Shown: positions 46,306-51,854 of the stretch, in pieces
How the letters are laid out: each line of letters starts with the position of its first letter
Numbering within the stretch: position 1 is the stretch's first letter
Program-made: the position numbers and the translations under genes
The notes under the pieces: generated by a model
The model's input: only the letters and a program-made list of their open reading frames with translations
The model's database searches: none
What the model was told of the DNA's origin: nothing
DNA from: Chitinophagaceae bacterium
GTDB lineage: Bacteria > Bacteroidota > Bacteroidia > Chitinophagales > Chitinophagaceae
DNA: 64,000 bases
Assembly: GCA_947504605.1 (NCBI GenBank)
Contig: CANNJE010000003.1
Location: 18,983 to 82,982 of the forward strand
Direction: 5' to 3'

Positions 46306-47604
46306 TTAAATTTTCAATAAAAAAGATCTAAGCGCTTCTGTATTATTTTCTATTAACAATGCCTTTTTATCCAGCTTTAATTGATCTTGTATCGTTTCAG
46401 GGATTTTTACAGCTTCACCAATGATGGGTTCTACTACATCAAAAAACTTCACGGGGTGAGCCGTTTCTATTACTATTCCTTTTTGTGATGGATGTTCTTG
46501 TAAATAATTTTCAAGCGCATGGTATCCTACTGCACCATGCGGATCTAGTAAGTACCCAAATTGATCATACACTTTTTTTAAAGTAATTTTTGTTTCCTCA
46601 TCATTGATACTGCAGGCCGTTAACTGTTTTTTCAGATCATTTATTTTCAGATCAAATATTTGCAATATCCTAACAAAATTGCTTGGGTTACCTACATCCA
46701 TTGCATTTGAAATAGTGGCAACCGCTTTCTTAGGCTGATATATATTTGTTTCAAAAAAATGTGGTACCGTATCGTTGGCATTACAGGCAGCTATAAAATG
46801 ATGAATGGGCAAGCCGGATGCTTTTGCTAAAATTCCTGCACAGATATTGCCAAAATTTCCACTAGGTACTGCAACAACTGGTGGATTATTTTTATCAGCC
46901 CACTGTTTATAGGCAAAGAAATAGTAGAACTGTTGTGGCAGCCAACGGGCTACATTAATAGAATTAGCTGATGTTAGGAAAAGGTTTTCAAAACTGTCGG
47001 CATCTGCAAAAATATCTTTTACCATTTGCTGGCAATCATCAAAACTTCCTTTTACTTCCAGCGCATGAATATTTTTACCCAACGTTGTTAATTGTTTTTC
47101 CTGAACGGTACTCACTTTTCCGGATGGGTATAAAATGATGACTTCTACATTGGGCACATCGTAAAAGCCATTGGCCACCGCTCCTCCCGTGTCGCCGGAT
47201 GTAGCAACCAGTACTGTAACTTTTTTAGGCTGGTCTTTTACAAAATAACCCAAACACCGGCTCATGAATCTTGCTCCTATATCCTTAAAGGCCAAAGTGG
47301 GTCCATGAAAAAGTTCTAACGAATAAATTGAATTATTTATCGATACAAGTGGTATGGGAAAGTTAACAGTTTCTTCCACAATATCTTTTAAAACAGCCGC
47401 AGGGATAGTGTCTCCTACATAAGGGCTGATTACCTCAAAAGCAATTGCTTCATCGGAGAAACTATTTATATCATTTATAAGAGTTTCCTGAAGCAGCGGT
47501 ATTCTTTCAGGGAAATAGAGTCCTTTATCCGGCGCCTGACCTTTGATGGTAGCTTCTTTAAAATTTACGAAGGGTGAATTATTATTGGTGCTAAAATAGT
47601 TCAT
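46306..47604 (-). CDS. thrC: Threonine synthase
   Basis: FHGPTLAFKDIGARFM, VLVATSGDTGGAVANGFY, VAVPSGNFGNICAG. Confidence 0.96.
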   Translation of the reverse strand: MNYFSTNNNSPFVNFKEATIKGQAPDKGLYFPERIPLLQETLINDINSFSDEAIAFEVISPYVGDTIPAAVLKDIVEETVNFPIPLVSINNSIYSLELFHGPTLAFKDIGARFMSRCLGYFVKDQPKKVTVLVATSGDTGGAVANGFYDVPNVEVIILYPSGKVSTVQEKQLTTLGKNIHALEVKGSFDDCQQMVKDIFADADSFENLFLTSANSINVARWLPQQFYYFFAYKQWADKNNPPVVAVPSGNFGNICAGILAKASGLPIHHFIAACNANDTVPHFFETNIYQPKKAVATISNAMDVGNPSNFVRILQIFDLKINDLKKQLTACSINDEETKITLKKVYDQFGYLLDPHGAVGYHALENYLQEHPSQKGIVIETAHPVKFFDVVEPIIGEAVKIPETIQDQLKLDKKALLIENNTEALRSFLLKI

Positions 47605-47680: not shown

Positions 47681-48634
47681 TTAAATGTCCTTTAAAACTT
47701 TTACTCCCTGCTGATTAATGGTGGTTACATAAACATGATGCTCCAGACCAATTTTGTTAAATACTGTATGCATTTCCTTCTTTACAGCTTCTGCAGTTTG
47801 TTCATTTGTGCTGAGCATAAAAATTGAAGGGCCTGAACCGGAGATGCCCCCTCCCAATGCACCCGCAGCCTTGCTTTGTTTTTTCACATCATCAAAGCCT
47901 GGTATCAAAATACTTCTAACTGGTTCTATGATTACATCTTCCAAGCTACGGCCAATAAGGTCATAATCATTTTTCATGAAGCCTGCTACGAGTCCGGCAA
48001 TATTACCCCATTGTTTTATAGCATCTTTAAGCAGCACCTGTTTTTTTAAAATTTGCCGTGCATCGGAGGTTCGTACTTCAATTTGTGGATGCACAACTGT
48101 AACCCATAATTCAGGTGCGGGAATGGGGACAATATCCAGCGGAAAAATACTTCTAATTAAAGTAATACCTCCATAAATGCAGGGTGCAACATTATCTGCA
48201 TGTTTAACTCCAGAAGCAACTTTTTCTCCACTCATGGCAAAACGTACCAATTGTTCCTGGCTAAAAAAATTATTCAGTAAATGATTGGCAGCCACAACTG
48301 CGCCAGCAGCACTGGCAGCACTTGAGCCAATGCCACTACCAGGTTTTATGTTTTTTTTGATAAGAACATCAAATCCAAAATCTGCATTTAATTCCTGAAG
48401 TATTTCTACTAAAGGCGCACCTGCTGTATTTTGCATAGGGTCTGTGGGAAGATTGTAGCCATCCGCACTTTTTAAACGTACTTCTTTTTCTGAAATAATC
48501 GTAACCGTCATTTCATCAGCGGGAGCATCAAGGCAAAGGCCTAGTACATCAAAACCGCATACGAGGTTGGCAACTGTTCCCGGAGAAGCAACTTTTACAG
48601 TTTGGTTAATAACAGGATTTATTTGCTGCTTCAT
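47681..48634 (-). CDS. thrB: Homoserine kinase
   Basis: GHMP kinase motif KPGSGIGSSAASAAGAVVAAN; lies between thrA and thrC. Confidence 0.95.
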   Translation of the reverse strand: MKQQINPVINQTVKVASPGTVANLVCGFDVLGLCLDAPADEMTVTIISEKEVRLKSADGYNLPTDPMQNTAGAPLVEILQELNADFGFDVLIKKNIKPGSGIGSSAASAAGAVVAANHLLNNFFSQEQLVRFAMSGEKVASGVKHADNVAPCIYGGITLIRSIFPLDIVPIPAPELWVTVVHPQIEVRTSDARQILKKQVLLKDAIKQWGNIAGLVAGFMKNDYDLIGRSLEDVIIEPVRSILIPGFDDVKKQSKAAGALGGGISGSGPSIFMLSTNEQTAEAVKKEMHTVFNKIGLEHHVYVTTINQQGVKVLKDI

Positions 48635-48636
48635 TT

Positions 48637-51081
48637 TTATGCTTTTGATGTTCTGATAATATCTGCAAATACGCCCGATGCTGTAACTGCAGCACCTGCT
48701 CCTGCACCTTTTATTACCAGAGGCTGCTGTGTATAACGATCGGTATAAAATAATACAATATTGTCCTTGCCGTAAAGATGATAGAAATCGTGTGGCGGTG
48801 GAATATGCAGTAAACCAACATTGGCTTTTCCTTCTTTAAAACTTGCTACAAATTTCAATTTACAACCTGCGCCTGCTGCATCATCATAAATCTTTTTAAA
48901 GTGGGCTTCATGCGCTTCCATTGATTCGTAAAAATCTGTCACAGATCCCTGCATACAGGCTTCAGGCATAAAAGAGTTATTGCCGATATCTTCCATTTCA
49001 ATTACATGGCCGGCTTCTCTTGCCAATATCATAATCTTACGCATCACATCTTTTCCGCTAAGATCAAGCCTTGGATCAGGTTCTGTATAACCTTCTTCCT
49101 GCGCCTGTTTTACAATAGAAGCAAAAGAGCTACTGCCATCATAATTATTGAAGACAAAATTTAAAGTGCCGCTAAGAACAGCTTCCATACTATGTATATT
49201 ATCTCCACTACGCAATAGGTCGTTTAATGTACCAATAATAGGTAAACTTGCACCTACATTTGTTTCGAACAAAAATTTTGTATTGTATTCAGTAGAAAGT
49301 TCTTTTAGTTTTTTATAATAAGGATAGGGAGAAGAGCAGGCAACTTTATTGCAGGCTACCACTGCAATACTTTTTTGCAGAAGTTTATCATAAACTGAAG
49401 CAACATCGTCATTGGCTGTAACATCTGCAAAAACAGTATTTCTTAAATTTTTTTCACGAATGGTTTTAATATATTCCTGAATGCCGGCGGTTTTGCCTGA
49501 AATTAATAATTCTTTCCAGGAGGAAAGATCTATACCATTTTCGTCTACCCAGAATTTTTTGCTATTGGCAATACCCACCACATTTACTTTCAAACGCATA
49601 TTGTGCAACAGGTACTCCTGCTGTTGAAGTATCTGGTCAAGTAATTTGGCACCAACATTTCCAACGCCTGCAATAAACAGATTTACTTCCCTTATTTCTT
49701 TTTCAAAAAATACTTCATGAATAGTATTGGTAGATTTATTTACATCTGCATTGCTGATAACGGCAGTAATATTTCTTTCGGATGAACCCTGTGCAATAGC
49801 TCTTATATTAACACCGTTTCTTCCCAATGCGCTAAAGAATTTTCCGCTGATGCCGGTGTGGTTTTTCATGCGGTCTCCAACGAGTGCGATTATCGAAAGA
49901 TTTTTTTCTACGATTAGTGGCTCTACTTTTTTTATCTCTATTTCATAAGCAAAAATTTCATCTATTATTTGTTTTGCTGCTGCTGCATTTTTTTCATCTA
50001 TGCCCACACAAATAGAATGTTCCGAAGAACTTTGGGTGATGAGGATTACATTTATTTTTTTTGAAGCAAGTGCTTCAAATAATCTCTTGGAGAATCCAGG
50101 AATTCCAACCATCCCACTTCCTTCCAAACTTAATAATGCAATGCTGCTGATACTTGAAATGCCAGTAATACTGCTGCTGCTTTCAGTTACTTTTTGCTGT
50201 ATAATTGTCCCATCATCTTCTGGTGCAAATGTATTTTTTATCCAAACAGGAATACCTTGACTCATTACAGGTTGAATAGTGGGCGGGTAAATAACTTTAG
50301 CACCAAAATGAGAAAGTTCCATTGCTTCCTGATAGGAAATCTGAGGGATGATTCTTGCATTGGGAACCAATCTTGGATCTGCTGTCATCATGCCAGAAAC
50401 ATCGGTCCATATTTCAAGTACAGTTGCATTTGCAGCAGCAGCAAAAATAGCAGCTGTATAATCGGATCCACCCCTGCCAAGCGTAGTGTGTACCCCTTCT
50501 TCATTGGAAGCAATAAAACCTGGGACAATGTATATTTTGCTATCGTTTCCTTTCAGGTATTTTGCAATATTATGGTTGGTTTGGGAAAAGTTTACAAGGG
50601 CGTTGCCAAAGTCTGAATTAGTTACAATCAATGCTCTTGAGTCGGTCCAAAGGGTTTGTATATTTTCTGACTGCAAGGCCGCCGCAATAATTTTGGATGA
50701 AAGCAATTCGCCATAACTTACAATACGATCTTTGGTTCGGGATGATAATTCTTTAAGAAGAAAAATGCCGTTACAGATATCTTCTATTTCGTTGCACTGT
50801 GTTTTAACAAAACTCAATAAACTGCTTTGATTATTAATAGGGATCAGGTCTCTTACTGTTTGCAAATGCCTTTGTTCAATCTCAATTAAAAAAGATTGAT
50901 AATTTTCCTGTCCTTCTGATGCTACCTGACTACACTGCAATAGCAAGTCTGTAATGCCACCCAATGCAGAAACAACTACAATCGTTTTATTGTCTTCAGT
51001 TTTATTTTTAAGAACTGCAATTACTTTTTTTATATTTTCTGCATTTTTAACAGAACTGCCTCCGAATTTTAAAACCTGCAT
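48637..51081 (-). CDS. thrA: Bifunctional aspartate kinase / homoserine dehydrogenase
   Basis: MQVLKFGGSSVKNAENIKKV, GRGGSDYTAAIFAAA, ACT repeats, C-terminal HSD (IAGVGNVGAKLLDQI, GTLNFVFNNY). Confidence 0.96.
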   Translation of the reverse strand: MQVLKFGGSSVKNAENIKKVIAVLKNKTEDNKTIVVVSALGGITDLLLQCSQVASEGQENYQSFLIEIEQRHLQTVRDLIPINNQSSLLSFVKTQCNEIEDICNGIFLLKELSSRTKDRIVSYGELLSSKIIAAALQSENIQTLWTDSRALIVTNSDFGNALVNFSQTNHNIAKYLKGNDSKIYIVPGFIASNEEGVHTTLGRGGSDYTAAIFAAAANATVLEIWTDVSGMMTADPRLVPNARIIPQISYQEAMELSHFGAKVIYPPTIQPVMSQGIPVWIKNTFAPEDDGTIIQQKVTESSSSITGISSISSIALLSLEGSGMVGIPGFSKRLFEALASKKINVILITQSSSEHSICVGIDEKNAAAAKQIIDEIFAYEIEIKKVEPLIVEKNLSIIALVGDRMKNHTGISGKFFSALGRNGVNIRAIAQGSSERNITAVISNADVNKSTNTIHEVFFEKEIREVNLFIAGVGNVGAKLLDQILQQQEYLLHNMRLKVNVVGIANSKKFWVDENGIDLSSWKELLISGKTAGIQEYIKTIREKNLRNTVFADVTANDDVASVYDKLLQKSIAVVACNKVACSSPYPYYKKLKELSTEYNTKFLFETNVGASLPIIGTLNDLLRSGDNIHSMEAVLSGTLNFVFNNYDGSSSFASIVKQAQEEGYTEPDPRLDLSGKDVMRKIMILAREAGHVIEMEDIGNNSFMPEACMQGSVTDFYESMEAHEAHFKKIYDDAAGAGCKLKFVASFKEGKANVGLLHIPPPHDFYHLYGKDNIVLFYTDRYTQQPLVIKGAGAGAAVTASGVFADIIRTSKA

Positions 51082-51160
51082 GCTTTATTTTATTAAGATG
51101 TATAAATGAAACTCCTGATGGATGAAATAGCCGTAGCCCGATGGATAATATGAGAATTTG

Positions 51161-51177
51161 CAACCCTTAGCGGGTTG
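51161..51177 (-). promoter_or_regulatory. RNA hairpin overlapping the last Thr codons and stop of the thr leader peptide
   Basis: mRNA CAACCC-GCTAA-GGGTTG, 6-bp arms, leader stop codon in the loop. Confidence 0.55.
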
Positions 51178-51250
51178 TAATAGTAATAATCGTAGTATTT
51201 GAGAATACTGCCGAAATGAATTGACTGTTATGTTTGTTTTGATTAAACAT
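51167..51250 (-). CDS. thrL: Threonine/isoleucine-rich leader peptide upstream of thrABC
   Basis: Reverse-strand reading atg ttt aat caa aac aaa cat aac agt caa ttc att tcg gca gta ttc tca aat act acg att att act att aca acc cgc taa = MFNQNKHNSQFISAVFSNTTIITITTR*; 27 aa with a TTIITITT run; 85 nt before the thrA ATG. Symbol used by analogy to enterobacterial thrL. Confidence 0.75.
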   Translation of the reverse strand: MFNQNKHNSQFISAVFSNTTIITITTR

Positions 51251-51281
51251 TTGCACGAATGTATAGAAATATTTGTGCAAA
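51250..51281 (-). promoter_or_regulatory. Inverted repeat directly upstream of the thr leader start codon
   Basis: Plus strand TTTGCACGAAT (51250-51260) and ATTTGTGCAAA (51271-51281): 11-nt arms, one mismatch, 10-nt spacer. Confidence 0.6.
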
Positions 51282-51434: not shown

Positions 51435-51854
51435 TTATCTCAATCTGTTACTTTCCTTTATAATTTTTTCATCATTGCTGATTCCTTTTGCGGCCAATAT
51501 GAAAAATAATACAACACAACCCTGCAGTAGTGCAGTTAGGGAATAGGTGCCCGCTGTGAATGTTTTTAACTCGGCATAATAAAGGAATAGGAGTAATGCT
51601 TCCAATAAAATACCGGCAATAATTAGCCTTAATTGTAATGTACGGTTGTTGTAAAGAAAAATCGTAATTAACGCTAATACTGCAATAGCAGTTGTTACAA
51701 TAATCAAAGGAATGCTTGTTGTGGCGTTTATTTTCTTAAAAGTATTGAGTGTTTCATTTTCAGTGACTGTTCCGCTGTAAAATGAAAGTTTAAAACCTAA
51801 GAAAGCACATACAGATGCAAGAAGCAGCCATATCGTTTGTATTCTTTGTAGCAT
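51435..51854 (-). CDS. DUF4293-like four-TM membrane protein
   Basis: MLQRIQTIWLLLASVCAFLGFKLSFYSG; pattern and size typical of the Bacteroidota DUF4293 family. Confidence 0.82.
   Translation of the reverse strand: MLQRIQTIWLLLASVCAFLGFKLSFYSGTVTENETLNTFKKINATTSIPLIIVTTAIAVLALITIFLYNNRTLQLRLIIAGILLEALLLFLYYAELKTFTAGTYSLTALLQGCVVLFFILAAKGISNDEKIIKESNRLR

Follow-up and report, generated by a model that had tools for sequence, protein, structure and literature searches.

A conserved threonine/isoleucine leader without an intrinsic terminator upstream of thrABC in Chitinophagaceae: a candidate ribosome-gated attenuator

Here we present an analysis of the region upstream of the thrA-thrB-thrC operon in a window of 64,000 nucleotides (nt) from a Chitinophagaceae bacterium of the phylum Bacteroidota (GenBank assembly GCA_947504605.1, contig CANNJE010000003.1, positions 18,983 to 82,982 of the forward strand); the window is the whole stretch of DNA that was analysed, and all coordinates refer to it. 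Upstream of the three thr genes, and in the same direction, lies a leader open reading frame (ORF) whose product ends in TTIITITTR, and an 85-nt gap separates its stop codon from the thrA ATG at 51081. The last codons of the leader form a run of threonine (Thr) and isoleucine (Ile) codons, a hairpin designated P1 encloses the stop codon, and a 9-nt motif, CATATYAYC, occurs once near the leader start and once beyond P1. Thr and Ile are the end products of the thr pathway. This arrangement is by far best read as amino-acid-controlled attenuation of thrABC, because a conserved leader with Thr/Ile codons is combined with a hairpin over its stop. The features of the element and of the operon are as follows.

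51167..51250, minus strand: thr leader ORF of 27 codons (MFNQNKHNSQFISAVFSNTTIITITTR), with ATG at 51250 and TAA at 51169-51167, kept in 68/68 P1-bearing family loci
51224..51232, minus strand: motif copy 1, degenerate (CATAACAGT, 7/9 matches), 18 nt after the leader start codon
51194..51209, minus strand: hairpin P0 inside the leader ORF, AGTATT-CTCA-AATACT, from minimum free energy folding; arm-swap test z -8.8
51173..51196, minus strand: Thr/Ile regulatory codon run ACT ACG ATT ATT ACT ATT ACA ACC, codons -9 to -2 from the stop
51161..51177, minus strand: hairpin P1, CAACCC-GCTAA-GGGTTG, with the stop codon within it, from minimum free energy folding and compensatory changes
51144..51152, minus strand: motif copy 2 (CATATTATC), unpaired, 8 nt after P1
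51129..51138, minus strand: small hairpin P2, GGC-TACG-GCT, 3/3 pairs with compensatory changes, 92.9% of cells paired
48637..51081, minus strand: thrA, bifunctional aspartate kinase/homoserine dehydrogenase I, above the NCBIfam cut-off
47681..48634, minus strand: thrB, homoserine kinase, above the NCBIfam cut-off
46306..47604, minus strand: thrC, threonine synthase, identified from reading the ORF alone

About 100 genomes were searched with thrA and further loci were added via a covariance model, giving 68 loci that were readable after anchoring on P1; these 68 are P1-bearing upstream regions of thrA from the window's family (f1). Every one of these carries a leader with Thr/Ile last codons, beginning with ATG, GTG or TTG. 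Thr and Ile together account for 82-98% of the residues at every position between codons -2 and -9, falling to 50% at codon -10 and to less than 40% farther upstream. Only ATT or ATC is used for Ile within the run, AUA being absent (0/136, against a background of 19.5%), and the run is therefore read by the GAU transfer RNA (tRNA) for Ile. Thus an end-product codon run in a conserved, co-directional leader ORF, which is what marks a ribosome-mediated attenuator, is found here, and it is well supported by codon conservation that the leader peptide would sense charged tRNA-Thr and tRNA-Ile(GAU). The first-pass annotation of this DNA had described the 27-codon ORF, its TTIITITT run and the CAACCC-GCTAA-GGGTTG hairpin over the last Thr codons and stop, and had suggested a comparison with the thrA upstream regions of relatives; that comparison upheld all three, with Thr/Ile codons conserved family-wide and compensatory changes in P1 (51177-51161).

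P1 pairing is kept through changes on both sides, for example from CAACCC/GGGTTG to CAATCCGC/GCGGATTG, and its folding energy over its region, -10.9 kcal/mol in the mean, is on average 7.2 kcal/mol better than that of shuffles. P2 follows about 10 nt beyond P1 in the family. Among 89 model-aligned sequences (alignment A2, itself fitted to the P1/P2 structure), 90.6% of P1 and P2 cells were paired, compared with 84.4% in shuffles and at most 56% with slid partners, and 42 both-side changes were counted against 7.3; both helices were also seen in an unguided alignment. A third hairpin, P3, is variable between loci and weakly supported. Furthermore, an alignment-free pairing test, in which arms from the same genome were compared with arms swapped between genomes, revealed that the leader start-codon region pairs with the leader's own Thr/Ile run (z -7.6 and -7.8 in two windows tied to the start, z -0.3 for the control pair). 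This pairing went undetected in a first test with wide, loosely anchored windows (z -1.0). A family-wide window-pair scan recovered both P0 and the start/Thr-run pairing; in the same scan, no pairing of the leader with sequence beyond copy 2 stood out clearly from permutation noise, and no conserved antiterminator was found. The classical switch between strands 1-4 was ruled out, as the scan showed no conserved alternative pairing.

The two copies of CATATYAYC occupy strictly defined positions. Copy 2 begins 6-10 nt from the end of P1 in 68/68 loci and 17-20 nt from the stop codon in 64/68; from the end of P1 to the last base of its CATAT is mostly 11-13 nt. Copy 1 has at least 8/9 matches in 51 of the 68 leaders, at an offset from the start codon of 18 nt in 37 and 17 nt in 6, with start codons picked irrespective of the motif. 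Shuffled sequence gives an 8/9 match anywhere in a comparable stretch in about one quarter of cases, and a weight matrix built from copy 2 alone found almost no motif at +17/+18 in 336 ordinary ORFs. Copy 1 occurs in more than one reading frame across leaders, and its histidine (His) codon is CAT in 43/44 cases compared with 73% in the background; its conservation is for these reasons evidently one of nucleotides, not of peptide. A conserved peptide HI[IT]SS was considered and ruled out, since the nucleotides persist while the frame shifts (at an offset of 17 the peptide reads NI[SL]S) and the choice of codons is under constraint. The motif copies have mean unpaired probabilities of 0.68 and 0.76, against 0.53. 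Beyond the thr leaders of this family, copy 1 was seen by eye at +17 to +19 in several thr leaders of other families, and ilv leaders have a match of at least 7/9 at +18 (6/18) or +21 (8/18) and almost none elsewhere. A match in his leaders was set aside as confounded by the His codons.

One terminator test, with a threshold of -10 kcal/mol, was run alike on thr, his and ilv leaders. It found no intrinsic terminator (a G+C stem plus U-tract) between the thr leader and thrA, the median best candidate scoring -1.2 kcal/mol and 4% reaching -10 kcal/mol or below, and what had initially been remarked for the 85-nt gap of the window thus holds family-wide. In the same family, the median best terminator was -16.1 kcal/mol for his leaders, 100% of which passed, and -18.6 kcal/mol for ilv leaders, 80% of which passed; canonical terminators are thus in use at other leaders of these bacteria, the thr leader being the exception. 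The hisG upstream regions (L140-L169) carry leaders of the form M-4aa-H-x-HHHH with strong terminators, and a segment after the leader is by eye complementary to the His codons, as in classical attenuators. In many ilvD upstream regions (L170-L199) the leader contains an IIIVVVIII run, and the terminator is of the form CCCGCCTCC..GGAGGCGGG with a U-tract.

The window's own genome holds one strong covariance-model site and no other at E<0.01. A role as a general terminator or regulon-wide module was ruled out on the basis of this single strong match, the remaining family matches being weak. The same element is found ahead of thrA in two further families of the class, f24 and f25, and in one outside it, f41; an altered version is present in f28. 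In family f23, a Thr/Ile leader comes with what by eye is a classical terminator (L202, L203), and in two genomes of f1, G031 (L064) and G015 (L065/L139), a diverged thrA of 46-47% identity is preceded by a classical terminator, again by eye. The terminator-less form therefore appears to replace, or to be replaced by, the classical one in evolution. The leaders at these f1 loci are rich in Ile (GTIIITCENSWR) or in methionine (Met), Thr and Ile (MTTIMSIMGDVQSWR), the latter being three end products of the pathway.

Beyond the end of the gene upstream of the operon (51435-51854, minus strand), a strong hairpin resembling a terminator and carrying a T run was seen by eye at about 51412-51377, and for this reason the start of the thrABC operon most likely lies between that hairpin and 51250. 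The Bacteroidota-type -7 promoter element is TANNTTTG, and a candidate is present:

51256..51263, minus strand: possible -7 promoter element (TACATTCG), found by eye just 5' of the leader ATG

The spacing to -33 at this putative leader promoter is non-canonical, and TAYCTTcG-like elements occupy the equivalent position in relatives. Additionally, an inverted repeat, TTTGCACAAAT..ATTCGTGCAAA (51281-51251), overlaps the presumed -7 element, and another, GTTTGTTAGATAACAAAC (51352-51332), lies 5' of the leader; either may be an operator. In a minority of relatives (e.g. L028, L040, L044 and L056) an imperfect inverted repeat, CTAACGNTTGTTA, covers the presumed -33 of the thr leader promoter.

We favor, with a probability of roughly 0.55, a model in which the element serves as a ribosome-gated thrABC attenuator, sensing charged tRNA-Thr and tRNA-Ile(GAU) and acting through factor-assisted termination without an intrinsic terminator. 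For the output step and the role of the motif, we infer the following course of events. RNA polymerase would pause near copy 1, and a ribosome would load before the Thr/Ile run is made; copy 1 would then lie at the leading edge of the initiating ribosome, and the pause would provide loading time before the run folds over the start codon. Ribosome and polymerase would subsequently advance together. Where Thr-tRNA or Ile-tRNA runs short, the ribosome would stall on the run and cover the 5' arm of P1, as expected for one held at codons -2 to about -6, and the polymerase would pass copy 2 into thrA. If instead the ribosome finishes and leaves, P1 could form 11-12 nt behind the CATAT of copy 2 and lengthen the pause, and the prolonged pause would lead to termination assisted by a factor, Rho or NusA/NusG. 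Rho is the likeliest final actor, and a rho gene is present in the genome. Pauses of the polymerase last longer when an RNA duplex lies 11-12 nt behind the 3' end (PMC12288461), and the spacing from P1 to the end of CATAT, mostly 11-13 nt, would fit such a duplex if the polymerase paused there.

A more general proposal, which we hold tentatively and well short of even odds, is that CATATYAYC is a Bacteroidota pause element acting at set points of leader translation. It would hold the polymerase ahead of a ribosome on the start codon (copy 1) and on the stop codon (copy 2), the readout would come from ribosome-polymerase synchrony together with P1, no terminator being involved, and its start-proximal form would be common to ilv leaders of these bacteria.

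Several points weigh against the favored model. Pausing, termination and the direction of the response are steps that we infer from sequence. Copy 1 has no preceding hairpin, which would make the pauses at the two copies different in kind, and copy 1 is degenerate both in the window and in 2/3 other genomes of the same genus. Rho termination usually requires open RNA, a need at odds with the predicted folding of the leader when no ribosome is on it. In the window, the pairing of start region and Thr/Ile run is, at -3.5 kcal/mol, a weak one, and in three loci (L014, L022 and L036) the in-frame stop lies outside the P1 loop. Also, the margin of the P1/P2 statistics is flattered by the structure-fitted alignment, and the locus set carries no phylogenetic weighting.

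A doubtful but serious alternative assigns control to Rho alone. The Thr/Ile run, rich in C and poor in G, would form, together with the G-poor sequence leading up to thrA, a Rho loading site covered by the stalled ribosome, as in E. coli tna, and P1, P2 and the motif would be mere pause or termination points. The C/G ratio is 9.1 over the run and 2.0-3.8 between P3 and thrA, and Rho has been proposed for the terminator-less cys leaders of mycobacteria (PMC1262725). The tna-like combination of an encoded Rho, a C-rich/G-poor leader and no intrinsic terminator is thus present, a weak argument since Thr/Ile codons are G-poor in any case. Moreover, a free run would, by prediction, be paired with the start region, and both the strict spacing of P1 and motif and the start-locked copy would be left unexplained.

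It is improbable that P1 itself is an intrinsic terminator with a poor U-tract that the stalled ribosome blocks directly. The strength of P1 and the moderately T-rich sequence after it would suit this role, but only about 3 T occur in the 7 nt before copy 2, full U-tracts are retained in his and ilv leaders of these bacteria, and the thr leaders rarely pass the terminator test. We give equally little credence to the motif as a binding site for a protein or a trans-acting RNA, placed twice around the Thr/Ile run with the leader as a scaffold for the factor. Two same-strand copies of an unpaired 9-nt sequence, both adjoining hairpins, are what such a site might look like, but the positions of copy 1 and copy 2 are fixed by the start codon and by P1, respectively, a site in double-stranded DNA should have no tie to codon positions, and the start-proximal match is shared by ilv leaders with ordinary terminators. 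Translational control, in which the leader would alter access to the thrA start and not readthrough, is very unlikely: it would fit the missing terminator and the actinobacterial LEU element, in which a codon run pairs with a downstream ribosome-binding site (PMC1262725), but 70 to more than 200 nt separate the element from the thrA start, which lies in A+T-rich sequence where no notable structure is seen, and none of the conserved pairings extends to it. In some relatives (L043, L044, L048, L050, L058 and L069) the motif-to-thrA distance is about 140-250 nt instead of 70-110, and this extra sequence likewise argues against control at the thrA start codon.

To our knowledge, transcription-translation coupling in Bacteroidota has hardly been studied. 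A terminator-less sensor shared by four families, of which one falls outside the window's class, would represent a second way from ribosome position to gene expression; such an output route is suggested because the terminator is missing here while the same bacteria use normal ones for his and ilv. Furthermore, a 9-nt element whose position is set by the leader start codon in one copy and by the stop hairpin in the other provides a specific, testable proposal for how ribosome and polymerase may be kept in step in this phylum.

Textbook amino-acid attenuation is defined by a terminator/antiterminator switch. As judged from the sequence comparisons, our element appears to behave as a leader-peptide attenuator but fails two tested features of the thrL/trpL class, terminator and antiterminator. 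The thrL-like attenuation proposed in the first-pass annotation therefore stands for the conserved Thr/Ile leader and stop hairpin and falls for the terminator mechanism; its description was accurate for leader and P1, and the motif copies, P2 and the long-range pairing were missing from it. A scan of Rfam, including the RF00506 covariance model, gave nothing above gathering, the weak matches being attributable to chance, and no account of the element was met with in Rfam or in the open-access literature searched.

Like enterobacterial thrL (RF00506), the element comprises a short ORF before thrA with Thr/Ile codons and a hairpin near the leader stop, and a response to charged tRNA-Thr and tRNA-Ile would be expected here too. 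Unlike thrL, it has no U-tract terminator and no conserved antiterminator, its stop codon lies inside P1, and it has the CATATYAYC motif and the start-codon/Thr-run pairing. The his and ilv leaders of the same family share the leader peptide with end-product codons and, in ilv, the CATATYAYC-like match at +18/+21, but theirs are strong intrinsic terminators, with leader-end segments that pair by eye with the terminator 5' arm in the classical manner. In the Bacillus subtilis tlrB leader, a pause buys time for leader translation, and P1 would, for a pause at CATAT, stand at the 11-12 nt spacing of pause hairpins; tlrB, however, senses antibiotics, whereas pausing is conjectural here and the motif is not TTNTTT (PMC12288461). 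The nearest published parallels are the terminator-less cys leaders of Mycobacterium and the actinobacterial LEU element (PMC1262725). The former have regulatory codons near the stop and no terminator, with Rho proposed, whereas P1, P2 and a repeated motif are conserved in our element. In the latter, as here, the run of regulatory codons pairs with the region of a translation start, but the partner there is the ribosome-binding site of the structural gene, and in the thr element it is the leader's own start codon.
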